Below are positions 33,890 through 48,700 of a stretch of DNA of 64,000 bases, one piece after another. The notes below the pieces were generated by a model. The model searched no databases and was not told the DNA's origin. It saw nothing but the letters and a program-made list of their open reading frames with translations. A program made the translations under genes and the position numbers. The stretch is from Brumimicrobium glaciale (GTDB taxonomy: Bacteria; Bacteroidota; Bacteroidia; Flavobacteriales_D; Crocinitomicaceae): assembly GCF_004152935.1 (NCBI RefSeq), contig NZ_SETE01000003.1:310001-374000 (forward strand), written 5' to 3'. Positions within the stretch are counted from its first letter, which is position 1; every line of letters starts with the position of its first letter.

Positions 33890-34672
33890 ATGAAAACAAT
33901 CATTTCAATATTTATCATAACTGCTGTACTAGTTGGAATGACTAGTTCAACAAATATATCTTACCCAAAAATCCAAAGTAAAAGCTTTACAAGTGGAGAG
34001 AAATTAACTTACCGTATCAGTTACGGAATAATGGATGCTGGGGAAGCAGTTTTAACTGTAAAGGAAACCAAGAAAAAAGGAGCAAACGGAAGACCACTTT
34101 ATCACGTGAAAGGAGAAGGTAAAACACTTGGAGCATTTAATTGGTTCTATAAAGTTGAAGATGTTTATGAATCTTATGTCGACAAAACAGGTGTTTTTCC
34201 TTGGTTATTCTTACGTGATATTAACGAAGGTGGTTATGAAAAAGAACAAGAATATGTTTTTGCTCAGGACAAACAAAAAGTTGTATCAAAAGGAAAAGAA
34301 TACAAAGTTCCTTTAGGAGTTCAAGACATGATTTCATCTTTCTATTATGCAAGAACATTGGATTTCAAGAACATGAAAGTGGGTGATGTATCTGAGTTTA
34401 AAGTTTTCATGGATGAAGATGTTTGGCCTTTAAAAGTTAGATATGTTGGAAAAGAAGATATTAAAATTCGTAAAGGAACATTCGAATGTCTTAAATTTCA
34501 ACCTGTTGTTCAACAAGGAAGATACTTTGAAAAAGAAGACGATGTTGAATTTTGGGTAACCAATGATGCCAACAGAATTCCAGTTCTAGTGAAAGCCAAA
34601 ATTCCAGTAGGAAGCATTAAAATGCACCTTGTAGATTGGGAAGGTTTAGTTGGTGACATTGCAATAAAGTAA
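33890..34672 (+). CDS. DUF3108 family secreted protein
   Basis: About 260 residues from the ATG at 33890, which begins a signal peptide (KTIISIFIITAVLVGM). An upstream in-frame ATG at 33821 would add 23 unlikely residues. The mature part has KSFTSGEKLTYRISYGIMDA, then AEAVL-like strands and VKGEGKTLGAFNWFYKVEDVYESY in the order typical of DUF3108, a beta-sandwich periplasmic or outer-membrane family. Function is unknown. A rho-independent terminator follows. Confidence 0.8.
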   Translation: MKTIISIFIITAVLVGMTSSTNISYPKIQSKSFTSGEKLTYRISYGIMDAGEAVLTVKETKKKGANGRPLYHVKGEGKTLGAFNWFYKVEDVYESYVDKTGVFPWLFLRDINEGGYEKEQEYVFAQDKQKVVSKGKEYKVPLGVQDMISSFYYARTLDFKNMKVGDVSEFKVFMDEDVWPLKVRYVGKEDIKIRKGTFECLKFQPVVQQGRYFEKEDDVEFWVTNDANRIPVLVKAKIPVGSIKMHLVDWEGLVGDIAIK

Positions 34673-34694
34673 AATAAGATAGTTCTAATTTAGG

Positions 34695-34727
34695 AAACGC
34701 ACTGTAGAAATACTGTGCGTTTTTTTG
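34695..34727 (+). terminator. Terminator of the DUF3108 gene
   Basis: Arms AAACGCAC and GTGCGTTT around a 12-base loop, running into seven or more T. Located 22 bases after the stop. Confidence 0.85.
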
Positions 34728-35079
34728 GTTAATATGGTTTTAATGGCGCAGTTCTAACTATCATCGCAAAATTGATAATTCAATTTAAAGAAACAAAAGG
34801 GCTTCGCTCTCCGAGAAGATCCTTCAATCACTAAAATCTCAGATTTTTTTGATTAAAGGATGACAGCGCTAAGTTGGGTGGGGTTAAAAAACGTGGAATA
34901 ATGCTCAAAAATTCGAACAATCTATATTGAAGTATATAATAACAATATGTGGTGATGATTAGAACTAAGCCGTTTTAACTTATTAGAAGAAGGAAGAGAA
35001 AAAGAGGTTAAAACACCATCCGTTTTTCCATTTACACACTGTTTTGTCTCCAAAAGCTTAACTATTGAATACACTTTCG
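34728..35079. other. Intergenic spacer with an imperfect palindrome
   Basis: No credible gene. It contains TCCTTCAATCA paired with TGATTAAAGGA (34822-34862) followed by TGACAG, resembling the outer part of the palindrome at 20300-20466. Confidence 0.5.
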
Positions 35080-35087
35080 TAAATTTG
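35080..35087 (+). promoter_or_regulatory. Candidate -7 box for the DUF4286-rsmA operon
   Basis: TAAATTTG, four bases before the ATG at 35092, so the transcript would be nearly leaderless if this box is used. Confidence 0.4.
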
Positions 35088-35091
35088 TAAC

Positions 35092-35403
35092 ATGGTAGTA
35101 TATAATGTAACAATTAGTCTTGATGTAAACGTGGCCGAAGATTGGCTAACATGGATGCGCGACACCCACGTTCCTGATGTAATGGCAACTGGACATTTTA
35201 GAGACAGTAAAATTTGTCGTGTTCACGGCGAAGAAGAAGGTGGAATTACTTATGCAATTATGTACACCGCTATTTCTCAAGAAGATTTAGATACTTATCA
35301 TGAGCAACATTCTCCGCGTTTACAACAAGAACATACAGAAAAGTTCTCAGGAAAATTCGCTTCATTTAGAACACTACTTTCTGTAGTTCAAGAATACAAA
35401 TAA
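35092..35403 (+). CDS. DUF4286 family protein
   Basis: 103 residues. The pattern YNVTISLDVNVAEDWLTWMR, HVPDVMATGHFRDSKICRV and the late EQHSPRLQQEHTEKF fits DUF4286, a small alpha-beta barrel-like fold common in Bacteroidota. No signal peptide. It ends two bases before the rsmA start and is probably co-transcribed with it. Function is unknown; no catalytic residues can be named. Confidence 0.85.
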   Translation: MVVYNVTISLDVNVAEDWLTWMRDTHVPDVMATGHFRDSKICRVHGEEEGGITYAIMYTAISQEDLDTYHEQHSPRLQQEHTEKFSGKFASFRTLLSVVQEYK

Positions 35404-35405
35404 CC

Positions 35406-36188
35406 ATGAGCGTACAACCAAAAAAACATTTAGGTCAACATTTTTTGACTGACGAAAATACGTGCAGAAAAATTGTTCAGCAATACACGAATTTTCAAGG
35501 CGCTAATAACATTTTAGAGATTGGTCCAGGAATGGGTGCAATCACGAAATACCTTTTGGATATTGAAGGAACAGATTTACATGTGATGGAAATCGATAGA
35601 GATTCTGTAGCATTTTTGAATGAAGCCTATCCTGCTCTTCATGATAAAATTCATTCAAATGATTTTCTAAAAACAGATCTTTCACAATTCTTTGATGGAA
35701 AACCTTATGCTGTAGTTGGAAATTTCCCATATAATATCTCTTCCCAAATTCTTTTTCATTGTATAGAATACAGAAACCAAATTCCTGAAATAATGGGAAT
35801 GTTTCAAAAAGAAGTAGCGGAAAGAATTGCTGAGCCTCCAGGATCTAAGAAATATGGAATTCTAAGCGTTTTAATGCAAACCTATTACGATATTTCGTAT
35901 TGTTTTACGGTACATGAAAACGTTTTTAATCCTCCACCAAAAGTAAAATCGGGTGTAATTAGCTGTTTGAGAAATCAACGCACACATTTACCGGTTGACG
36001 AGGATTTGTATAAAAGAATTATAAAATCTACTTTTAATCAACGCAGAAAAACCGTTAAGAATGGCTTAAAAGTAGTTCTTGATGTGACTTTGCTTCCAGA
36101 ACATCCGTTTTTGAAACAACGTGCAGAGACATTAAGTGTCGATGACTTTATTGAGTTAACGCAGATTGTTGAAAAAGCGATGGTGTAG
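35406..36188 (+). CDS. rsmA: 16S rRNA dimethyladenosine methyltransferase
   Basis: 260 residues, standard length. It starts KKHLGQHFLTDENTCRKIV, has the SAM loop LEIGPGMGAITKYLL, the acidic strand HVMEIDRDSV and the catalytic VVGNFPYNISSQI (NxPY motif IV). It dimethylates two adjacent adenosines in helix 45 of 16S rRNA during small-subunit maturation. It is the second gene of a pair with DUF4286. The palindrome array begins seven bases after its stop. Confidence 0.97.
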   Translation: MSVQPKKHLGQHFLTDENTCRKIVQQYTNFQGANNILEIGPGMGAITKYLLDIEGTDLHVMEIDRDSVAFLNEAYPALHDKIHSNDFLKTDLSQFFDGKPYAVVGNFPYNISSQILFHCIEYRNQIPEIMGMFQKEVAERIAEPPGSKKYGILSVLMQTYYDISYCFTVHENVFNPPPKVKSGVISCLRNQRTHLPVDEDLYKRIIKSTFNQRRKTVKNGLKVVLDVTLLPEHPFLKQRAETLSVDDFIELTQIVEKAMV

Positions 36189-36195
36189 TATTAAT

Positions 36196-36775
36196 GTCGC
36201 CACTCTGTGGCTTTGAATCTCGTGGTGTTAGTGTTTTTATTAACACTTCATCACTCTGTGGCGATGGATTGTAGATTCTAAAGCTACTGTAATCCAAAAA
36301 AACCACACGAAATTTCAATCCAAAATACCAAGTTAAAACTGTTTTAGTTTTATATTTATCGGTTCCTCACTATTACGCTAACTAGCCCACGGAGTGGGTG
36401 ATATGTGAATAAAAAAAACGTTAGACGTTTTTTTAAAAGCCACAGAGTGGTGACGTGCTACTCAATCATCAATCTGTTTTCTGAATTGGTAAGCGTTTAG
36501 GATGAAATCACATTCATATGTCGCCACTCTGTGGCTTTGTAAACTCTTAGTGTAGCTAAAGCTACTAACACTTCACCACTCTGCGGCGATGGATTGTAGA
36601 TTAAAAAACTACTGTAATCCAAAAAGAAAACACACGAAGTTTCAATCTAGAACATCAAGCTAAAACTGATTTTATTTTGCATTTATCTGCTTCTCTTTAT
36701 CTAGCCCACGGAGTGGGTGATATGTTAATAAAAAACTTCTAAAGTTTTTTATTAACATATCACAGAGTGGTGACG
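36196..36775. repeat. Palindromic-element array, left block (elements A1, C1, A2, C2)
   Basis: Four elements of about 70 nt alternate in orientation: A1 36196-36265, C1 36383-36455, A2 36520-36590 and C2 36702-36775. A elements run GTCGCCACTCTGTGGC to CACTTCACCACTCTGTGGCG; C elements run AGCCCACGGAGTGGGTGAT to GCCACAGAGTGGTGAC and are inverted relatives of A. Each can fold as one long hairpin or as two small CCACnnnGTGG hairpins. Spacers between them also repeat. Confidence 0.88.
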
Positions 36776-36841
36776 CACTATGCACACATCACCGCTATTC
36801 TCTAAGGTTATGTGGGTTTTAATACTTTTGGTATTGCTGAA

Positions 36842-37291
36842 TCAAAACACATAACGTTCGTCATATTCCACTTCACAAGTATCTAAAAACTCTAGGTATT
36901 CTTCTTCGAAAGTTTTCCTACTATGATGCTTTTCTTGATTTTTGATATAGTTTGTTACCATTGGTACTTGAGAATATCCAATAGTAAAAACACTATATCC
37001 TTTTTGCCAAGTAAATTTCTTACTCGTAAAGTGATTTTCATTAATCCATTTTGTTGAACTTGATTTAATATCTCTAACTAGATCAGGTATGAAGCAATTT
37101 GGATTACTACTTAATAGAATATGAAGATGATTTGGCATTCCGTTAATAATCATCATTTTTTGTTTTGGAGCCTTAACAATTCCGGTTATGTACTTGTTTA
37201 AGTCTTCTTTCCAAGATTTATCTATGTGGTTTTTTCTGTTTCTCACAGCAAAGATTATGTGATAATACATTTTTGAATAAGTGTCGCCCAT
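36842..37291 (-). CDS. Y1 (HUH) transposase, IS200/IS605- or RAYT-like
   Basis: 149 residues, intact. The HUH metal site is PNHLHILL (His55, His57) and the likely nucleophile is Tyr115 in TNYIKNQEKHH. The opening YYHIIFAVRNRK is typical of the family. Such single-tyrosine enzymes cut and join single-stranded DNA at subterminal hairpins; REP-associated members (RAYTs) act on palindromic repeats scattered in the genome. This gene sits inside an array of palindromes, between C2 and A3, which supports a RAYT-like relation. No TnpB gene is adjacent. A remnant of a C element (about 37380-37400) lies on its 5' side. Confidence 0.9.
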   Translation of the reverse strand: MGDTYSKMYYHIIFAVRNRKNHIDKSWKEDLNKYITGIVKAPKQKMMIINGMPNHLHILLSSNPNCFIPDLVRDIKSSSTKWINENHFTSKKFTWQKGYSVFTIGYSQVPMVTNYIKNQEKHHSRKTFEEEYLEFLDTCEVEYDERYVF

Positions 37292-37379
37292 GATTTAAGT
37301 TTTTAAGATTTACTAAATTAAGATAGTGAAATAATTGAGATTAAGCGATATAGATTAGGATTATTTTTTTTATTTCTGG

Positions 37380-38504
37380 ATTTTGCGTTTGTGGTGTCCT
37401 GCTATTCAATCATCAATCTGTTTTCTGAAGTGGTTAGCGTTTAGGATGAAAGCACATTCACATGTCGCCACTCTGTGGCTTGGGACCCCATGGCTTTAGG
37501 ATTTTTATTAACACTTCACCACTCTGTGGCAATGGATTGTAGATTTAGAAACTACTGTACTCCAAAAAAACCACACGAAACTTCAATTCAAAAACAATTC
37601 TTGTCTATAATTTCTTATTTCTCGTTATTAAGCCCACAGAGTGGGTGACATGTTAATAAAAAAACGTCTTACGTTTTTTTAAAAGCCACAGAGTGGCGAC
37701 ACGCTATTCAATCATCAATCTGTTTTCTGAAGTGGTTAGCGTTTAGGATGAAAGCACATTCACATGTCGCCACTCTGTGGCTTGGGATCTCATGGTTTTA
37801 GGGTTTTTATTAACACTTCACCACTCTGTGGCGATAAATGATGACTAAAAACGACTGTACTCCAAAAAAACCACACGAAATTTCAATCTAGAACATCAAG
37901 CTAAAACTGTTTTTGTTTTGCATTTATTGGTTTCTCACTATTACGCTAACTAGCCCACGGAGTGGGTGATGTGTTAATAAAAAAAACGTTAGACGTTTTT
38001 TTTAAAGCCACAGAGTGGCGACACGCTATTTAATCATCAATCTGTTTTCTGAAGTAGTTAGCGTTTAGGATGAAAGCACATTCGTATGTCACCACTCTGT
38101 GGCTTGGGATCTCATGGTTTTAGGGTTTTTATTAACACTTCACCACTCTGTGGCGATAAATAATGATTAAAAACGACTGTAGTCCAAAAAAAACACACGA
38201 AACTTCAATTCAAAAACACCAAGCTAAATGATTCTTGTCCCTTATTTACGAGTTCCTCACTATTACGCTATCCACCCCACAGAGTAGGTGATATGTTAAT
38301 AAAAAAAACGGCTAGCGTTTTTTAGCCCGTCAGCTGCCGAATGACGCAACTATGCACACATCTTGTAAACAAATCGTTACTATTCTCTTAAACAAAACGC
38401 ATAGCAATCGAAAAATTAAAACACATTCACGTGTCGCCACTCCTGTGGCTTTATGGCATTACTGAGTAGCTAAAGCTATTAACATTTCATCACTCTGTGG
38501 CGAT
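37380..38504. repeat. Palindromic-element array, right block (elements A3 to A6)
   Basis: Elements: A3 37464-37533, C3 37630-37700, A4 37766-37835, C4 37951-38022, A5 38088-38157, C5 about 38274-38335 (decayed) and A6 38433-38504. A-to-A spacing is about 302, 322 and 345 nt. The linker AATCATCAATCTGTTTTCTG, then GTTAGCGTTTAGGATGAAA, is repeated before A3, A4 and A5, as before A2; A6 has a different linker that begins ACTATGCACACATC, also found just right of C2. Confidence 0.88.
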
Positions 38505-38585
38505 CGATAATAGATTGAAACGCTATTTCAATCAAAAAACTCAAGGATTTATTTATATGAAGAAAAATTCTAGATTTTTCTTTCG

Positions 38586-38593
38586 TAAATTTG
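38586..38593 (+). promoter_or_regulatory. Candidate -7 box for mgtE
   Basis: TAAATTTG fits TAnnTTTG, 16 bases before the ATG at 38610. Confidence 0.45.
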
Positions 38594-38609
38594 CAAAAAT
38601 CTTATCCAG

Positions 38610-39959
38610 ATGCAGTACGAATTAACTAGAGAATATTTAGATGAAATCAGAGATTTAATTGCTGAGAACGAAAGCGATTTTATTGAGAAAGAAATCATCA
38701 TACTTCACCCAGCAGATATTGCTGAAATTCTAGACGAACTAAATAGAGATGAGGCCAAGTATATTTATGACCATTTAGATCATGATTTACAAGGTGATGT
38801 TTTAATGGAATTGGATGACGATGTACGTCAACGTTTCGTTGAAACATTCAATTCTGATCAACTTGCACTTCAATTAGAGAATTTAGATTCTGATGATGCG
38901 GTGGATATTCTTGGTGAGATGTCTGTTGCAAAGCAGCTGGAGGTAATCTCTAAGATGGACAGCGAAAACGCTTCTGAATTAGTTGATCTTTTAAATTATG
39001 ACGAAGATTCGGCTGGGGGATTAATGCAAACGGAATTTATTCGTGCAAAACTCGAATGGCCAATTAATCGTTGTGTAATTGAGTTGCGAAGACAAGCCGA
39101 AGAAGTTGACAAAGTCCATACCATTTATGTAGTCGATAATGATGACAAACTTGTGGGAACATTATCGCTTCGTGCTTTATTAGTTGCCAATGCAAAATCG
39201 GTAGTTAGAGATGTTTACGAGAATACAAACATGGCTTATGTTTATACCAATGAAGACGCCGAGGAAGTAGCGAGAGTCATGGATAAATATGATTTGGTTT
39301 CTGTTCCTGTGCTTGATTTACAAAAGAAATTAGTCGGACGAATTACCATTGATGATATCGTTGATGTTATTCGTGAGGAGGCAGATAAAGATTTCCAGAT
39401 GGCTTCGGGTATTTCTGAGAATGTAGAACACAATGCTGGAATCATAAAGATGTCACGTGCCCGGCTTCCTTGGTTGATGATTGGTTTAATGGGAGGAGTT
39501 TTAGGTTCTCAAGTAATTGGAAATTTCGAAACACAAATTGGTGCAATTCCTTCATTGGCATTTTTTATTCCGCTGGTAGCAGCAATGGGAGGAAATGTTG
39601 GAGTGCAGTCAAGTGCTATCGTTGTTCAGTCAATTGCTAATGGAACAAGTCAATTCAGTAGTATTTTATCCCGAGTAAAAAGAGAAGCTCTTCTAGGGCT
39701 TTTAAATGGTCTTATTTGTGGGATTTTCATTTTTGGAATCACATGGTTATTACAAGACATAAGATTGGGAATCTCTGTAAGTATCGCCTTATTTATTGTG
39801 ATCTTTTTCGCAGCGATTTTCGGGACGTTAATTCCTTTGATTTTACACAAGTACAAAGTTGATCCCGCGGTGGCAACAGGTCCGTTTATTACAACTCTAA
39901 ATGATGTTGTTGGACTGTTTATTTACTTTGCTGTGGGAATGATGGTGTTTGATTTGTAA
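38610..39959 (+). CDS. mgtE: Magnesium transporter MgtE
   Basis: 449 residues, normal length. Layout: acidic N-domain (about 1-125; HPADIAEILDELNRDEAKYI), two CBS domains (about 135-250; VHTIYVVDNDDKLVGTLSLR and SVPVLDLQKKLVGRITIDDI), a linker helix, then five membrane helices (about 285-449) with PLVAAMGGNVGVQSSAI and the closing LNDVVGLFIYFAVG. It is a Mg2+-gated channel; the N and CBS domains close the pore when cytosolic Mg2+ is high. Single gene at the right edge of the palindrome array. Confidence 0.96.
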   Translation: MQYELTREYLDEIRDLIAENESDFIEKEIIILHPADIAEILDELNRDEAKYIYDHLDHDLQGDVLMELDDDVRQRFVETFNSDQLALQLENLDSDDAVDILGEMSVAKQLEVISKMDSENASELVDLLNYDEDSAGGLMQTEFIRAKLEWPINRCVIELRRQAEEVDKVHTIYVVDNDDKLVGTLSLRALLVANAKSVVRDVYENTNMAYVYTNEDAEEVARVMDKYDLVSVPVLDLQKKLVGRITIDDIVDVIREEADKDFQMASGISENVEHNAGIIKMSRARLPWLMIGLMGGVLGSQVIGNFETQIGAIPSLAFFIPLVAAMGGNVGVQSSAIVVQSIANGTSQFSSILSRVKREALLGLLNGLICGIFIFGITWLLQDIRLGISVSIALFIVIFFAAIFGTLIPLILHKYKVDPAVATGPFITTLNDVVGLFIYFAVGMMVFDL

Positions 39960-40160
39960 ACATGCAATGGTATTTTGGTTTGTGTTAACGAGCAATGGTT
40001 TTTGATTTGTGTTAACATGTAATGGTATTTTGGTTTGTGTTAACGAGCAATGGTTTTGGTTTGTGTTCACATGCAATGTTTTTGATTTGTGTTAATGTGC
40101 AATGGTTTTGGTTTGTGTTAACGTGTAATGGTATTTTGGTTTGTGTTAACGTGCAATGTT
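39960..40160. repeat. Minisatellite of 26-28 nt units
   Basis: About eight head-to-tail units of consensus RTGCAATGGTTTTGGTTT followed by GTGTTAAC, with small length differences (GGTATTTTGG or GGTTTTGG). It starts right at the mgtE stop. A short frame through it is an artefact of the repeat. Confidence 0.9.
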
Positions 40161-40202
40161 TTTTATTGTGGAGACGCAATGCATTGCGTCTCTACAATAA
40201 AA
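40161..40202. repeat. Interspersed palindrome with GAGACG arms
   Basis: TTTTATTGT, then GAGACGCAAT joined directly to GCATTGCGTCTC, then ACAATAAAA: a near-perfect palindrome of about 42 nt between mgtE and the convergent MORN gene. It could also act as a shared terminator. Confidence 0.8.
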
Positions 40203-40216
40203 AAACAAATCAAACA

Positions 40217-41938
40217 TTATCTTAACGGTGCAAATGACGTACCTGATTTCGATCCTTCGATTACCTGAATACCATTTTTAAAGGTCTGTTCTTTTACCAC
40301 TTTTCCGTTTTCATCGTAAATTTTAACCTTCCCGTCTTTTACACCGTTTTTATATTCGGCTTCAGAGATAATTCTATTTCCTCTGAATTCATAATTTTTC
40401 ATTTTACCATGGAGTTCTCCATTTTTATAATTTGAAATTACTGCCGGCAAAACACCTCCTGGATGATAAACTGTCCACGTTCCATGCTTTTCACCATTCT
40501 TGTATTTTCCTTCCTGCGTTTTTGAATAATCTTTTTGAGAATACTCAATTGATTTTCCATGAGGAACGGATATGCGTACTACTCTGTCTTTTGTTGGACC
40601 GTATTTTACCTTCGATTTCTTTTCAACTACTTTAAAATTCTCAACATCTTTTGGCATTCCATTTCTAAAAAAAGTTATCCATTCGCCAGATTTTTGACCA
40701 TGATCATAAAATCCTTTCGAAAGTGGTTTTCCATCATTAAAAAACGACAACCATTCGCCATTTAGTTTTCCTTTTGAGAAATCAGATTGGTTTTTTAACT
40801 GACCATTTTCCCAGTAATTTTTCCAAGTTCCTTCTTCAAGGTCGTCTTTGTAATCACCTTCCATCAGTAATGTTCCATCCTCATACCAAGTAGTCCAGCT
40901 TCCGTTTTTTAAATCATTTTCGAAATGACCTACTTTAAACTTTTTACCATTTCTGTAATTATAAGTCCATTTCCCATCCTTCTTGCCTGCTTTGTATTTG
41001 GCGCGATAAGAAAGTTCTCCCGATGGAAAATTGTAAATCCACGAGCCATTTTGCAATCCATTCTTGAAAGACCCTTTCATGTCAATAACTCCAGAATTAG
41101 TATACCAAAACCATTCTCCTGTTTTTTCTCCTTCTGAAAATTCACCTTCAACATTCACCTGACCATTGTCGAAATAATAAATGTAAGAACCTTCTAACTT
41201 ACCGTTTTTATAATGTGATATCTTTTCTAAATCTCCTGTGTAGTAGTAATATTCCCATTTCCCTTCGGGTTTATTGTCAATAAAAGATCCTTTCATTAAA
41301 TAGTATCCATTCACAGAAGCTTCTTCAAAAACTCCGTGTCGTAATCCATCTTTGTAATTGTACCAAGATTCTAAGCGACCATTACCAAAGTATGTCGCCA
41401 TTGAACCATTACCGTCTGTTATAGATTGTGTATGCGCGGTATCTGCTCCGTAAAACTGCCAAACATAAGAGGTTTCATCTATGATTTCTTCCACCATTTT
41501 TAAAGCACCATCCGTATAAAAATAACGCCATTTTCCTGTTGGTTCTCCTAAATTGAAATACCCGACTTGCGTTGTATCTCCAGTTAAAGAAAAATCAATA
41601 AATATACTGTCTTGCTCATCTTGATAAAAATAGCCTATGCTTTGTGTTTTTTCTTTTCCATAGTACTTTATCACTTCTCCATTTAGCTTATTTCTGTCGT
41701 AGTGACGTTCTTCAACCAATGTTCCTTCTCTATTAAAAAATGACCATTTACCATGTCTTTCAGTGGTTTCACCTAAATCATCTGAATAATAATAGCCATG
41801 ACTTTCTACTTGAACCCTTGTTGCTGGATCGTAATAAAAAGTTTGACGCTTAGAAAGATTTCTTTCTTTTCTGGTTTGGCTATATCCATTAAAGAAAAGG
41901 AATACAAATAAAAAAAGTAAAATTGTTTTGTACATCAT
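40217..41938 (-). CDS. Secreted MORN-repeat protein
   Basis: 573 residues: signal peptide (about 1-20, ending FFNGYSQ) and then a chain of about sixteen or more MORN_2/YwqK-type repeats of roughly 23 residues with the pattern G-x-W-x-x-Y-x-x-G-x-L (for example GKWEYYYYTGDLEKISHYKN, GSWIYNFPSGELSYRAKYKA and GKWTYNYRNGKKFKVGHFEN). Such proteins are common in Bacteroidota and form long beta-strand ladders; functions are mostly unknown, and the YwqK antitoxin label in databases is not evidence of a toxin here. No T9SS sorting domain or lipobox is visible. Single gene. Confidence 0.85.
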   Translation of the reverse strand: MMYKTILLFLFVFLFFNGYSQTRKERNLSKRQTFYYDPATRVQVESHGYYYSDDLGETTERHGKWSFFNREGTLVEERHYDRNKLNGEVIKYYGKEKTQSIGYFYQDEQDSIFIDFSLTGDTTQVGYFNLGEPTGKWRYFYTDGALKMVEEIIDETSYVWQFYGADTAHTQSITDGNGSMATYFGNGRLESWYNYKDGLRHGVFEEASVNGYYLMKGSFIDNKPEGKWEYYYYTGDLEKISHYKNGKLEGSYIYYFDNGQVNVEGEFSEGEKTGEWFWYTNSGVIDMKGSFKNGLQNGSWIYNFPSGELSYRAKYKAGKKDGKWTYNYRNGKKFKVGHFENDLKNGSWTTWYEDGTLLMEGDYKDDLEEGTWKNYWENGQLKNQSDFSKGKLNGEWLSFFNDGKPLSKGFYDHGQKSGEWITFFRNGMPKDVENFKVVEKKSKVKYGPTKDRVVRISVPHGKSIEYSQKDYSKTQEGKYKNGEKHGTWTVYHPGGVLPAVISNYKNGELHGKMKNYEFRGNRIISEAEYKNGVKDGKVKIYDENGKVVKEQTFKNGIQVIEGSKSGTSFAPLR

Positions 41939-41989
41939 AGAAACTATATTAACATATCAGTATAACAAAAATATCAGAAAAGTTACATT

Positions 41990-42640
41990 TTATTTGAGCC
42001 ACATAACGATGCTATTGATTACCAAAAACACACCAAAAACCATCAATATAGATCCTGTAATTCTATTTAATGAACGCAAAAGAGTTACTGTAATAAATGG
42101 ACGTAATTTTTTAGCACCAACTATTTTCACCACATCAATGGCGAAAAATGTAAATAAAACAATTGAAAGATAGAGAATCATTTCACCTCCGGTAAGTACG
42201 TCATTTGATCGCGTGTGTCCCAATGCCATGACAGAAAACCAATAAAAAACGACCAAAGGGTTTGCTAAATTCAACAACAATCCTTTGATGAATAAAATCC
42301 AATAATCTTTAGGATCAGCATTAACTTTCTTTGTTTTGGCGACCTCAACAGTATCTACTTTTTTGACAAAGGTAAGGTAACCATAAACGAAAAAAAGTAC
42401 ACCTCCAATGGCGCGAATTAACGCATTATCACCTCCACTGGAAAGATCTTCGATTTGCTGAATAAAGACATAAGCGATAACAATATAAATAATATCACTG
42501 ACTAAAACACCAGCATCAAAAGACAAAGCAGCGCGAATCCCTCTTTTAATACTTGTCTCTAAAAGCACAAAAAATGCAGGACCAAGCATAACGCTTAAGA
42601 TTAATCCTGTAACAATCGCTTTTAGAAGTAATTCGCTCAA
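41990..42640 (-). CDS. LysE/RhtB family exporter
   Basis: 216 residues with about six membrane helices. The family start is recognisable (LLKAIVTGLILSVMLGPAFF, then LLETSIKRGIRAALSFDAGV), followed by a charged central loop and LFIKGLLLNLANPLVVFYWF, the conserved NPLxxxF pattern. Members export amino acids or other small metabolites; the substrate is unknown. The gene starts 16 bases after the lepA stop, so it may be co-transcribed with lepA. Confidence 0.88.
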   Translation of the reverse strand: MSELLLKAIVTGLILSVMLGPAFFVLLETSIKRGIRAALSFDAGVLVSDIIYIVIAYVFIQQIEDLSSGGDNALIRAIGGVLFFVYGYLTFVKKVDTVEVAKTKKVNADPKDYWILFIKGLLLNLANPLVVFYWFSVMALGHTRSNDVLTGGEMILYLSIVLFTFFAIDVVKIVGAKKLRPFITVTLLRSLNRITGSILMVFGVFLVINSIVMWLK

Positions 42641-42656
42641 TTTACTTTAGTTCTAT

Positions 42657-44453
42657 TTAGTCGTTCAATTTCAATACCGCTAAAAATGCTTCTTGTGGAA
42701 CTTCAACTCTACCCACTTGTCGCATACGTTTCTTACCTTCTTTTTGTTTCTCTAAAAGCTTTCTTTTACGAGAAATATCTCCACCATAACATTTGGCAGT
42801 TACATCTTTACGTAAAGCTTTAATTGTTTCTCTGGCAATAACTTTCGCTCCAATACTCGCTTGAATAGGAATCTCAAATTGTTGTCTCGGAATTAATTCC
42901 TTCAATTTTAAACAAATTTTCTTTCCTAATTCAAAAGCATTACTTCTGTGAACCAATGCCGAAAGAGCATCTACTTGTTCGTGGTTTAATAAGATATCCA
43001 GCTTCACTAAATCAGACGCTTGATAACCAATTGGGTGATAATCGAAAGAAGCATAACCTCTAGAAACAGATTTTAAACGATCATAAAAATCAAATACAAT
43101 CTCTGCCATTGGCATTTTGAAAGTGATCTCAACCCTGTCTTGGGTTAAATAGATTTGATTCTGTAATTCCCCACGTTTTTCAACACATAATGTCATTACT
43201 TGTCCAACATATTCAGATTTTGTAATTACTTGTGCTTTAATATAAGGCTCTTCAATTGTTTCAATAGTCGATGGATCTGGTAAATCAGATGGATTATTTA
43301 CAATTTGCTTATCTGTAGGATTTTTTCTTGTATAGCAATAGTAAGAAACGTTTGGAACAGTAGTAATTACTGTCATATTGAACTCTCGTTCTAAACGCTC
43401 TTGGATAATTTCCATGTGTAACATTCCTAAGAATCCACAGCGAAAACCGAAACCTAATGCAGCAGAAGATTCAGGTTCAAAAACCAGCGATGAATCATTC
43501 AATTGTAATTTCTCCATTGAATAACGCAATTCCTCAAAATCATCTGTATCAACAGGGTAAATTCCGGCAAATACCATTGGTTTTACATCCTCAAACCCTT
43601 TTACAGCAGTTAAGCAAGGATTGTCAAAAGTTGTAATTGTTTCTCCTACTTTAACTTCTTTGGCATTTTTAATCCCTGAAATAATATATCCAACATCTCC
43701 TGTTTTAACAATATCTCTGGGTTGAGGCGTCATTTTCAAAATTCCAATTTCATCTGCATGGTAATCTTCTCCAGTATTTAAAAATAGAATTTTCTCACCT
43801 TTTTTAAGAGAACCATTCATTATTCTGTAATAAGCAATAATTCCTCTAAATGGGTTGAAAACAGAATCAAATACCATCGCTTGTAACGGTCCATCAGGAT
43901 CTCCTTTTGGAGCTGGAATTCGACTTAAAATTGCAGCTAATATTTCATCAACTCCTAATCCTGTCTTTCCAGAAGCTGGAATAACATCAGAAGGATCACA
44001 ACCTATTAATTCTACAATTTGGTCTGTCACTTCCTCTGGCTCCGCACCAGGTAAGTCCATTTTATTTAAAATTGGAATAATTTCCAAGTCATTTTCTAAA
44101 GCCAAATATAAATTCGAAATCGTTTGTGCTTCGATTCCTTGTGATGCATCAACAATTAATAATGCACCTTCACAAGCTGCGATAGAACGAGAAACTTCGT
44201 AAGAAAAATCAACGTGTCCAGGTGTGTCAATAAGGTTTAAAGTATATTTCTCGCCATCCTTTTCATAATCCATTTGAATTGCATGACTCTTAATAGTGAT
44301 TCCACGTTCGCGTTCCAAATCCATACTATCAAGCGCTTGATTTTGCATGTCACGATCTGAAATCGTTCCTGTAGCTTGTAATAATCTATCAGCCAAGGTG
44401 CTTTTTCCATGGTCAATATGTGCGATGATGCAGAAATTTCGAATATTTTTCAT
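42657..44453 (-). CDS. lepA: Elongation factor 4 (LepA)
   Basis: 598 residues, standard length. GTPase motifs: [15 protein letters not shown] (G1), RGITIK (G2), [13 protein letters not shown] (G3), [10 protein letters not shown] (G4) and [10 protein letters not shown] (G5). The C-terminal LepA-specific domain ends [17 protein letters not shown], then [15 protein letters not shown], as expected. It is a ribosome-associated translation factor that back-translocates or remodels stalled ribosomes. A LysE-type exporter gene follows closely. Confidence 0.98.
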
Positions 44454-44740
44454 TTAAATCCTTTTGTTCTTGTGTTTTTGGTCTGACCTTAAAAAACCGA
44501 TAATGATTTTATAATCGGTAAAAGATAAGAAATCGTATGCGAATTTAAGGGATTTTAGTCAGTTTTCAAGCTATTTGACTGCAAGAATGATAAATGATTA
44601 AACAGAAAATTCAATTATTGACAAAATAGAGCTGTTTTGTCCTGCAAAATTGACGATTTAATACCTGTCAAGGACTTATAATAGATGAAATAAAGAGATA
44701 TGATTAAAGGCGTGCATAAATAAAGTGTCTTAAATTAATA

Positions 44741-44774
44741 ATTGGAGATAGAGACGGGCGTCTCTATCTCCAAT
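44741..44774. repeat. Perfect palindrome with GAGACG arms
   Basis: ATTGGAGATAGAGACG, two G, then CGTCTCTATCTCCAAT: a perfect 16-bp stem with a two-base loop. It is related in its core to the palindrome at 40161-40202. Confidence 0.85.
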
Positions 44775-45064
44775 CAAACACTACTACTTATGAAACCTAA
44801 CGGTACAAAGATACTAAACTTTTCTACCTTGGAATCACTTACCATGGTATTTATTCTTAAAAAAATGTTAAAAAAAATTTACCCCCTAATTTTAAAGGGA
44901 ACTGGTGTTGAAAATTTGATTGAAGAATAAAATAATTGGGTGATCAAGATAGATTGCTAATTGAAAAATATGATTAGTATGAACTGTCATACGCTTCATC
45001 CACGCAGTGAATAAGATGTAATTAGTATCTGCTGACGGATGAAGCGCTCAACATACATGGACGC

Positions 45065-45190
45065 TTTTCTCTTAGACAAATCGCAGAGTAATCGAAAATT
45101 AAAACACAATCACATTTCGCCACGCTGTGGCTTTATCGCATTAATGAATAGCTAAAACTACTAACATTTCACCACTCTGTGGAGACAGAC
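45065..45190. repeat. Remote A-type palindromic element (A7) with linker
   Basis: TTCGCCACGCTGTGGCTTTA to CATTTCACCACTCTGTGG (45115-45186), preceded by a linker (TCTTAGACAAATCGCAGAGT, then AATCGAAAATTAAAACACA) that matches the linker before A6 at 38380-38432. It lies 6.6 kb from the main array. Confidence 0.85.
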
Positions 45191-45236
45191 AAGAGATTGA
45201 AAGGTTGTTGACGTTCGTAAAACCAATGTAAAAATC

Positions 45237-45689
45237 CTAAAAAAACAATCTCCCATTAATCCATTCAGGATCTAGTGTGGCTCCAATTTTCTTGTAAAAC
45301 TGAATAGCAGAGTCATTCCAATCCAAAACTTGCCAATCCATGCGTTTTACACCCATTTCTTTGGCTTCATCTACTAAAGTTTGAAACAGTTTTTGACCTA
45401 TTCCTCCTCTGCGGAAATCAGGTTGAATGTATAAATCCTCAAGGTATAAACATCTTCCTCGCCAAGTAGAGTAAGAAATATAATATAAAGCCATTCCTCG
45501 AATTATACCCTCTATTTCATATACAAAACAATCACAAATCTTATCATCGAATATATCGATGGCCAGCTGCTCTGGGGTATTTATGACTTCATCTGGCGCT
45601 TTTTCAAATTCTGCAAGTTCATGAACAAGTCCCATTAGTGCCAGTTCGTCTCCTCTTTTGGCTTTTCTAATGTTTGTTCCTTCCATCAT
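45237..45689 (-). CDS. GNAT family N-acetyltransferase
   Basis: 150 residues. The GNAT acetyl-CoA-binding loop is in LYLEDLYIQPDFRRGGIGQK, with the R-x-x-G-x-G core RRGGIG; the closing WNDSAIQFYKKIGAT is typical of spermidine/diamine acetyltransferase-like members. The start is one of two adjacent ATGs. The gene begins 11 bases after the sprA stop and could be the last gene of the maeB-ruvA-sprA operon. Substrate is unknown. Confidence 0.88.
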   Translation of the reverse strand: MMEGTNIRKAKRGDELALMGLVHELAEFEKAPDEVINTPEQLAIDIFDDKICDCFVYEIEGIIRGMALYYISYSTWRGRCLYLEDLYIQPDFRRGGIGQKLFQTLVDEAKEMGVKRMDWQVLDWNDSAIQFYKKIGATLDPEWINGRLFF

Positions 45690-45700
45690 TATTGTGTTAT

Positions 45701-48700
45701 TTATAGTCCTCCTAAATTGATTCTTATTCTAAGTCCAGCGGCAATGTTTCCTGTAACGTAAGACGTTGCAACCGTTGGATCTGTTAACTGCTGATCGTAA
45801 AATAACGAAAGCGTTAGGTTTTTTCCAACCAGATAATCTGCACTTGATCTGATAGAGAATACACGCTGTCCAGCTGTTGCTTGTGTCGTGTTTTCAATTA
45901 CTTTTCTAATTACAGTGATGTTATCTCTGATTGATAAATCGATTCGGATATTCAAATCAGAGGCTTTCAATTTATTTCCTTGGAAGGTTAACGGGAGTCT
46001 GAAATTCGTGAACTTATATCCTGTTCCTACCACATACTCCGTTCCTATCATCTCTGTTAATTGATTATTTGCTAGAGACAAAGAAGAAGAACGTTCTTTA
46101 CTGATTTCAAATTTAGTTAAAAGTCCATTTCCATTGACTTTCCAAGTTGCATCAAATCCAAATAATGGAGAGAAGCGCTCTGAAATAGTAACGTTTTGAA
46201 CTTGTTGTTGAGAAATAAAATTGTCATTGATATCTCTGGCAGATAAGAATCCGTCATCATCTATTTCTGAATTCAAATTGGTTTGCATTCCTGCAACGGT
46301 TACAGATGAATTATAACCATGTCTTAAAGTGAAATTCTGTACATATTTTTTAAAGAATTTAAACTTGGTTAATCCATTATAGGAAACCTGCCAATTTGGA
46401 AGTGGAACATTTCGAACTGGAGAAATTGATTTCTTAGAAGTTTTCTTTCCAGAGAATGTGTTCAAGAAAGCACCAATAATTACATCTTGCTGACTTGGAC
46501 CATATCCATCTTTATATCCTGCACTATCTGACAAACTATAAGGATTTCCTTCTCCTAAAACTTGAGAAACTTCTGTCCTTTTCGATCTTAGATTGTCAAA
46601 AGAAGGGGATCGGAAATCACTATCCATAGCTTCAAATGCCGAACGAATAGAAATTGTAGAATAACTTACCGTCGTTGATTTGAATTCACTTTGATTTTCA
46701 AAAGCTTGTAAACTATCTGAGAATCTATAATATTGAGATGAGCTTTCTGTGAAATTACGTTTCATTGTTAAATCAACCTTCAAATCTTTAATTGGCTCAA
46801 TACTGGCCCTCAAATTATAATTTTGAGCATGCATTATTGTATGTTGTGTATTCAATCCACTTGTATCAACAACAAATCCATTAGCTCCAGCATAAGGTGC
46901 AAACTCAAATCCTGTTTCTTTTCCGAAAACATTTCGTTGTTGTTCACCAATTGCAAATCCTCTAATTTTACTGTCACCAATCATCGCGTTGTTCATTCCA
47001 AAGAACTTAGCCTCCTGATTAAATCCTGGCAATAACATCCCATCATTTTGAGTGTATGTTCCTGAAATTGTTCTCACACTCATCAATGCTCTAGCTCCAA
47101 AACCAGTAATTGGATGATATGGTTTTCCAAATTTATCTTGATACTTTTCTTCTCTTTCTTCTTGAGTGGCTATTCTTTCATTTTGATTTTCTAATCTTGG
47201 CTCTTTACTTCCTAATTTTCGTTCAACTTTTGCAAGCTCTTTTTGGTGCTCAACAAGTTCGTCTGTCTCAAGTTGATCTACCTTAATTTTTTCTAGTTTC
47301 TCTAGTTTTTCATTAAGTTCTTTTACCTTCTTGGCTAAACGGCTGTCGTTATTTGTGTTTCCTAAGTTCCTATTCACTCCACCTCTGGTATTTAATCCGC
47401 CATCACCCATTGCGCTGCGCATAGTTGCTCTTCCACCTCTACCATCGTCAATAATCTTCTTTAAGAAATCAGACTTCTTATATAAGGTCAACATATTCAA
47501 TTGTGCCGTTGTATTTATCGTTCGGCTATTTTGAATTGTATTCCCAAAGGCTTCTTGACCTAAATTTGGCCTTGTCCATTCATAAGAACCACTGTAACGC
47601 ACATTTGAATTAATGAAATCTAAAGCAGGTATCTTATTAAATGGAAGATTGTAAGTTAGATTATAAGTTTGATCATAGCGCATTGTTTTTCCTAAAGTCC
47701 TCAATTGAGTTCTTACAGAATCTTGAAATTCTCTGTATAATTCTGGATTTTCATTTTTATCAACTTGTCCTCCTGGCTCATCTATAATTGAACTATTATT
47801 TGCTGAAAAGTCGAATTTTAGATTTCTTGTTAAATCATACTTAAAGTCAAATCTTCTGTTCCATGTAAAGTTTTTCAAATAGATTGGTTGGAATTCAAAA
47901 GCAGTATTGGGAATATTATTTCTGATTTGTCTTTCGTTATAATTACGAATCAAGTTGTTTTTAACACTAATGTTCTTTGGTCCAAGATACAAATTCGTTG
48001 ATTTCACTAAATCCCACCATTTAGATTTACGCATCAATTTGGAGTTTTTGAATGGCTCCCAAAGGGTTGGTGCTCCATTATAAACATAGTTCACACCCCC
48101 TTTCCAAATTTTAGTTCTATCATAATTCGTAGTGAAATCTCGGTGTAAATCTTCACTGTAAGCAAAGTTTAATGAGAAATTACTAATGTCCCAGAGATTG
48201 GCTTCTGAACCAGGCTTTCTTTGACGTCTAACATTTGTAAAGTTGAATGATTTACGTTGTGTAAAATCTCGTCCATCTTTTAATTTTCGTTTTCGCTCTT
48301 CTGCTTCATAAGAAGAAAGTTCTATATCCGGATTGTAAGGATCGAAGCGTGGATTTATTGCTCCAACGGAATAAGTATATAAGAAAGGAATGTCAATTTT
48401 AGCATTTTCTCCTAATAATTGTCCCAATTGTGCATTTGCAGAAATATCTAAACTTAAACGCGTATCTCTCTGACGGTCTGAAACTTTACTATCTATACTT
48501 CCCCAGTTTAAACCACTGTATGCACCCGCAACTTGAACAGTAGCAAAGTCAGCAATTTGCAGTTGAGCTTGTGCCAAAGCAGCAGATCCTCCTTCGTTTT
48601 GGAACTCTGTTAAACGCAGCTCATTCACCCAAACCTGAACACATTTCGCTAATCCATCATCTGGTTTCCAAGGGTTTTTGGCATCCAGTTTCGGATTCCT

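Follow-up and report, generated by a model that had tools for sequence, protein, structure and literature searches.

A probable REP/RAYT-like system of four-hairpin units associated with a TnpA-Y1 subclass 1.2 transposase in Brumimicrobium glaciale

Introduction

The closest described counterparts of the system considered here, an array of alternating palindromes enclosing a Y1 (HUH) transposase gene in Brumimicrobium glaciale, are the REP-associated tyrosine transposases (RAYTs, or TnpAREP) and their repetitive extragenic palindromes (REPs), with REPINs and bacterial interspersed mosaic elements (BIMEs). The array lies in a stretch of 64,000 nucleotides (contig NZ_SETE01000003.1, positions 310,001 to 374,000), which we call the window and to which coordinates refer. 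By comparison with the RAYT reports (PMC3116915, PMC8266576), both systems have inverted palindrome doublets, tandem clusters beside the transposase and one palindrome family per enzyme. The present one differs in its enzyme class, in the absence of a GTAG foot at 88 of the 92 loci compared, in having two hairpins per end and in tails that point inward. From sequence comparison we consider it probable that an enzyme of TnpA-Y1 subclass 1.2 is, at this locus, the basis of a REP/RAYT-like system, with a four-hairpin mobile unit on which it would act.

In Quentin et al. (2018, PMC6006769), subclass 1.2 is described by the motif Y---Q--HH, a WQ, a length of about 148 residues, few and divergent copies per genome and occurrence in Bacteroidetes; it is set apart from IS200 by copy number and ends, and its REP entry reads "no". 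The automatic REP search outlined there covered tnpAREP-like genes with a 5' GT[AG]G foot, some subclasses being inspected manually. The hairpins of subclass 1.2 may have gone unreported perhaps because of this choice of foot. Among the literature matches listed, none tied subclass 1.2 to palindromes by title or start of abstract, and the letters of the hairpin-tail motifs and of the CCAC core had no match in the literature text searched.

Small palindromes have also been reported from Bacteroidetes and Chlorobi as CGTC-tagged repeats (Di Nocera et al. 2013, PMC3733652), with stems of 8-9 bp, loops of 4-5 nt, A/T at the first stem positions and no transposase association.

Results

The transposase fits subclass 1.2

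A preliminary description of this DNA, made from its letters alone, had placed an intact Y1 transposase with a His-Leu-His (HLH) motif and Tyr115 between the array elements C2 and A3, and this was borne out:

36842..37291, minus strand: intact Y1 (HUH) transposase of 149 residues, HLH at 55-57, Tyr115, motif YIKNQEKHH; subclass 1.2 by signature

The protein matches Pfam Y1_Tnp (E 3.9e-29) and scores 76.1 with the NCBIfam IS200 model NF033573, above its cut-off of 55; with NCBIfam REP_Tyr it reaches 30.7 bits, below the cut-off of 80. The solved structures that match it in sequence are those of IS200-type transposases, ISHp608 included. YIKNQEKHH reads as Y---Q--HH and TWQK supplies the WQ, marks by which the enzyme appears to fit TnpA-Y1 subclass 1.2, although the HUH motif is NHLH here and DH[IV]H for the subclass in PMC6006769. 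Besides the window copy, the genome holds three others at E<=1e-15, few and far apart, at 35-57% identity.

Hairpins flank subclass 1.2 genes across the phylum

Searches at E<=1e-15 gave transposase matches in 8 of 10 genomes of the genus, 76 of 240 of the family and 162 of 395 of the phylum. The 94 gene loci examined, mostly the best-scoring rather than all matches, come from these searches together with the own genome and a scan of named genomes; the genes of relatives were located by tblastn. The signature Y---Q--HH (Q and L allowed at the last two positions) is present at 92 of them; L005 and L068, which lack it, were dropped.

Using a finder that requires perfect stems of at least 5 bp and so misses degenerate copies, we found at least two same-core hairpins within 1 kb at 78 of the 92 loci and at least three at 46. 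Repeated same-core hairpins occurred in 0 of 460 dinucleotide shuffles and in 1 of 34 natural control stretches (Fisher 4e-18). Many of the loci are kin, and thinning of near-copy proteins leaves repeated hairpins at 42 of 50 loci. Both flanks have hairpins within 250 nt at 68 of the 92 loci, and each flank has at least two at 42, compared with 1 of 20 random controls. Hairpins therefore flank this transposase subclass across the phylum. Both the repeated hairpins (78/92) and those on both sides of the gene (68/92) are at odds with the "no" entered for REP in PMC6006769, a mismatch that concerns the gene's neighbours and not the protein; repeated hairpins beside subclass 1.2 genes are what is new here. 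One natural control kept in the count, L138 (G575:C3:20000-22449), itself holds 30 copies of the hairpin core ACGCGCGAAGCGT.

Stem type follows the transposase tree

A tree was built from 91 proteins, the short L039 being left out, and 17 of the 91 rows, with rare or no stem label, were dropped. On the 74 labelled rows stem type changes 19 times, compared with 39.2 after shuffling (0 of 500 shuffles as low); on 39 thinned rows there are 14 changes versus 21.2 (again 0 of 500). TCCC, CTCC, CCCT and CTTC stems cluster, and stem type thus follows the transposase tree. The own genome offers an example, since its two transposases of 57% identity have an array each, with CCAC stems here and CTCC/TTCC stems for the paralogue at C4 (a handle distinct from element C4).

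We also searched with a tail pattern, in which the tail and the outer G-C and inner C-G pairs are fixed and three stem positions are free. Of 395 genomes, 14 contain it, with 74 matches in total (reversed control 0). Of these matches 63 were listed, and 60 of them have complementary letters at each of the three free positions, in 6 stem types. A transposase match is present in 12 of these 14 genomes, compared with 162 of 395 overall (p 0.0012, uncorrected for kinship). The pattern is clade-bound and undercounts. In Winogradskyella, the transposase relative L019 has an in-frame stop and is preceded by a long array of CCAC, CCGC and CTCC hairpins with the same tail.

Unit shape, tails and feet

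Among the 160 hairpins nearest to the genes, loops measure 3 nt in 123, 4 in 36 and 5 in 1, and arms 5-7 in 149; the median spacing at transposase loci is 51 nt. A strict GAHAT tail stands at the gene-facing foot of 52 of the 160 and at the opposite foot of 2, the consensus G-A-(A/C/T)-A-T reaching 41-75% per position upstream and 36-66% downstream. This strong orientation is confined to the nearest hairpins. The unit is best read as an outer hairpin, about 51 nt, an inner hairpin, a spacer or the gene, and the mirror image, with consensus tails inward (fullest form GAHATATTNATAG). A GT[AG]G foot was seen at 4 of 92 loci and in 4 of 426 hairpins. Outside the foot of the outer hairpin, AA alone is common to 25 pattern-picked ends, the hairpin and tail columns being fixed by the pattern.

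In one other genus (G264, G408, G554, G562) most of the places fetched show, by eye, gene-less copies with four hairpins around a short spacer; two hairpins only are present in L190 and in four copies from G532 (L181-L184). The latter four are pairs of unlike stem type just before the starts of secreted-protein-looking genes, at four places in one genome. Three gene-less units (L176, L179, L191) directly follow terminator-like hairpins with T runs, as judged by eye, a position that may reflect a target preference. In one transposase clade (L101, L104, L106, L118, L120, L121) the tail ends in GGTAG about 10 nt past the hairpin on one or both flanks, which recalls the GTAG tag of REPs.

The array in Brumimicrobium glaciale

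The preliminary description listed eleven elements in alternating orientation over about 2.3 kb and, 5' of the transposase gene, a remnant of C, and all were recovered. The array (36196-38503) comprises A1-A6 in minus sense and C1-C5 in plus sense, with the gene within it:

36196..36265, minus strand: A1, an end without partner to its left
36385..36454, plus strand: C1, outer hairpin CCCACGGAGTGGG and tail TGATATGTGAATA, then an AT-rich hairpin and the inner hairpin
36385..36589, unstranded: gene-less four-hairpin unit, C1 and A2 facing each other across a 65-nt spacer
36520..36589, minus strand: A2
36704..36774, plus strand: C2, central AT hairpin with perfect 22-nt arms
36704..37532, unstranded: gene-bearing unit, C2 and A3 facing the transposase gene, a convergent layout shared with other loci
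37372..37415, plus strand: remnant of a C element, 5' of the transposase gene, family D6, 61% identity
37464..37532, minus strand: A3
37632..37701, plus strand: C3
37632..37834, unstranded: gene-less four-hairpin unit, C3 and A4 facing each other
37766..37834, minus strand: A4
37953..38023, plus strand: C4
37953..38156, unstranded: gene-less four-hairpin unit, C4 and A5 facing each other
38088..38156, minus strand: A5
38276..38346, plus strand: C5, degenerate
38276..38503, unstranded: gene-less unit, C5 (degenerate) and A6 facing each other
38433..38503, minus strand: A6

A-to-A distances are 325, 943, 302, 322 and 345 nt, the gene sitting in the 943, and the gene-less units (C1-A2, C3-A4, C4-A5, C5-A6) have spacers of 64-86 nt. 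The repeats span the linkers too, over 300 nt that are 86% alike.

Each element had been proposed to fold either as one long hairpin or as two small ones. Upon folding as single-stranded DNA, this held for the A elements, of which A1, A2, A4 and A6 give one long hairpin and A3 and A5 two small ones with a weak third. It did not hold for the C elements: none of the five gives one long hairpin, C1, C3 and C4 form three hairpins in a row, C2 forms two, and C5 is degenerate. Folding z scores against shuffles run from -2.9 to -10.0 for C and from -0.7 to -4.5 for A, so that A3 and A5 fold no better than shuffles. C and A are inverted relatives in both terminal hairpins and unlike in the middle part. 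They are best read as the two ends of one four-hairpin unit, not as independent palindromes, with the gene inside the C2-A3 copy.

On either side of the array stand genes that we call, from their protein sequences, ksgA-like (35406-36188) and mgtE-like (38610-39959). The gap between them is 2421 nt here and about 57-222 nt, by alignment ends, in 7 of 9 sister genomes with both genes seen; that of the sister genome G003 holds one degenerate A-like hairpin. The array is thus absent from the orthologous gap in sister genomes.

Copies elsewhere and at one orthologous site

The core CACTCTGTGG occurs 28 times in the own genome (4.27 Mb), 14 of them within the array, and the reversed control pattern once. 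A dispersed copy lies in the same window:

45117..45183, minus strand: dispersed A copy, accompanied, by eye, by a degenerate C (about 44985-45060) and an end like a terminal inverted repeat (TIR) at about 44936

Across the genus we counted 29 CCACRGAGTGG cores for the own genome, 8 for G003, 7 for G001 and 0 for G002, G004, G005, G006 and one more; the 2 in G008 and the 1 in G009 lie, by eye, in coding-like sequence. G002, G004, G005 and G006, all without this core, have related transposases of at best 39-48% identity, which means that they do not share the exact type. The number of cores does not simply track the presence of any subclass 1.2 member.

In another genus, 31 of 150 genomes matched in a site search, giving 30 loci, of which the 19 long matches (L192-L210) were read; L208, with no left flank by blastn, was dropped, leaving 18. 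The site holds two tandem units in L192, one in L193, L194 and L202, and a degenerate one in L196 and L197. It is empty, with the gene end joined directly to a terminator-like stretch, in L195, L206, L207 (right-flank match of 33 nt only), L209 and L210. The right flank is absent in L198, L201, L203 and L204, and L199, L200 and L205 have other palindromes or remnants. Whole units are therefore present or absent, in 0, 1 or 2 copies, at one orthologous site.

Apart from the array, one Rfam microRNA model matched both strands of 40156-40208, far below its gathering score; the pattern suggests a palindrome of about 53 nt, and the stretch adjoins a repetitive open reading frame at 40022-40225.

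Discussion

The probable REP/RAYT-like mechanism can be put as follows. The mobile unit would have its ends at the outer hairpin feet or close to them, with AT-rich tails inward and the gene occupying the spacer in gene-bearing copies. The enzyme would bind hairpins of its own type on single-stranded DNA, and cleavage near the tail by Tyr115 could lead to units being excised, inserted or duplicated. The ksgA-mgtE gap here holds five units and one lone end, and some units would have been carried away inside unrelated TIR elements and spread without the enzyme. We infer that the enzyme, rather than ordinary recombination, drives copying.

Several observations weigh against this account. Two same-core hairpins within 1 kb were not found at 14 of the 92 loci, and the natural controls are unmatched for intergenic content. 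CCCC and CCAC stems show no clear clustering on the transposase tree (35 and 500 of 500 shuffles as low), 38 of whose 87 inner branches are weak. Of the 162 transposase-bearing genomes only 12 have the full tail pattern, a single genus supplies 8 of the 14 genomes positive for it, and G440 and G438 each hold one match to it without a transposase match. Among all hairpins within 1 kb, 81 have an ATATT tail toward the gene, 59 away from it and 521 none; the strict gene-facing tail occurs at 42 of 92 loci and its mirror at 14.

Further adverse evidence feeds an alternative in which the units are passengers, riding TIR miniature inverted-repeat transposable elements (MITEs) moved by a DDE transposase and multiplying in place by recombination, with the Y1 gene a bystander. 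Two own-genome (G000) copies, L009 and L014, each lie inside a 409-bp TIR element whose 8-bp duplication (8/8 and 7/8) suggests a DDE-type enzyme; these copies have likely been spread by another enzyme in the own genome. Among the 12 TIR copies checked, the 8-bp duplication is exact in 7, agrees at 7/8 in 4 and at 5/8 in 1, and a DDE enzyme is presumed to move the TTGGGYTACCAA MITE. G003 bears its 8 cores with no transposase match at E<=1e-15, and a TIR end lies beside the unit at 5 of 6 loci fetched from it. The preliminary description had suggested checking whether palindrome number follows the transposase and had named palindromes equally abundant in relatives lacking it as contrary evidence; within the genus the link is not simple, and G003 is in part such a relative. 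Finally, the array repeats include the linkers, so that tandem duplication could explain the array. Against this alternative, the Y1 gene has hairpins on either flank at 68 of 92 loci, and stem type tracks the Y1 tree; in the other genus, neither the variable site (0, 1 or 2 units) nor the dispersed units have a flank in common other than AA at the foot of the outer hairpin, TIRs not having been formally searched for there. No MITE-type TIR was noticed at the array or in other-genus units, likewise with no formal search. We therefore hold the passenger explanation to be unlikely for the system as a whole, with TIR MITEs as the vehicle of L009 and L014 and probably of the G003 copies.

The MITE family itself (G000; L041-L055) has the TIR TTGGGYTACCAAKMTARGTCGT; its cargo varies and its target duplications are mostly of 8 bp. 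The TIR pattern has 28 matches in G000 at up to 3 mismatches, 14 per strand (control 3). A few members bear the CCAC unit, the others seen bearing other sequence. A separate set of near-identical dispersed elements (L166, L167, L169, L170) has inward CTCC/TTCC hairpins and a central palindrome of about 50 bp; the ends of the L166-L170 set are GGTTCTACC (both ends in L166 and L167), and they show no clear target duplication.

An ordinary IS200/IS605 insertion sequence, with terminal hairpins and deletion derivatives, would account for the NCBIfam IS200 score and the IS200-type structural matches. We regard it as improbable: the gene copies are few, far apart and at best 57% identical within the genome, not the near-identical copies of IS200/IS605 (subclass 1.1); the ends are mirrored hairpin pairs; the hairpins also occur in gene-less copies and arrays; and copy number and ends are what distinguish subclass 1.2 from IS200 in Quentin et al. 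(2018, PMC6006769).

That the hairpins serve as transcription terminators or mRNA regulators is very unlikely. Downstream hairpins often start 3-15 nt past the stop codon, and 18 of 80 are followed in the gene's direction by at least 5 T in 8 nt; yet 62 of 80 have no such run, hairpins of these types also occur upstream of the gene, as well as between unrelated genes, and an Rfam scan of 34500-46000 gave 5 matches at E<=1, every one far below the gathering score.

A canonical class-2 RAYT with BIMEs, a system known in kind, would share the inverted pairs, alternation, tandem clusters by the gene and one palindrome per transposase, but with Y---Q--HH in place of Y---NP, a REP_Tyr score of 30.7 against 80 and a GT[AG]G foot confined to 4 of 92 loci we can scarcely credit it.

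Identity with the CGTC-tagged repeats was likewise rejected. Read as reverse complement, the present hairpins often have, by eye, a TGTC or CGTC foot, a point of resemblance to those repeats; their arms, however, are mostly 5-7 and their loops 3-4, and they adjoin transposase genes.

The system has its own palindromes around the gene and dispersed, a mark of RAYT/TnpAREP, and works like REP/RAYT, yet lacks two defining marks, Y---NP and the GTAG foot. The proposal of a distinct RAYT-like family with its own palindrome substrate agrees with the phylum-wide flanking hairpins and with stem type tracking the tree, provided that it is not taken as a class-2 RAYT. By their sequence features, the elements are the apparent four-hairpin, GTAG-less, inward-tailed partners of subclass 1.2, under which we file the enzyme.

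On balance, we lean towards the broader view that Y1 enzymes of subclass 1.2 drive a REP-like superfamily of their own, phylum-wide and evolved in parallel to RAYT/REPIN, in which an inward AT-rich tail replaces the GTAG foot of four-hairpin elements, stems co-evolve with the enzyme and elements are also able to travel inside DDE MITEs. This would give an apparent substrate to an HUH enzyme subclass listed without REP partners. The recurring tail with its varied stems would offer natural swaps with which to map recognition, and a second, independent partnership of transposase and palindrome could be used to test how RAYT/REPIN-like systems arise and persist.
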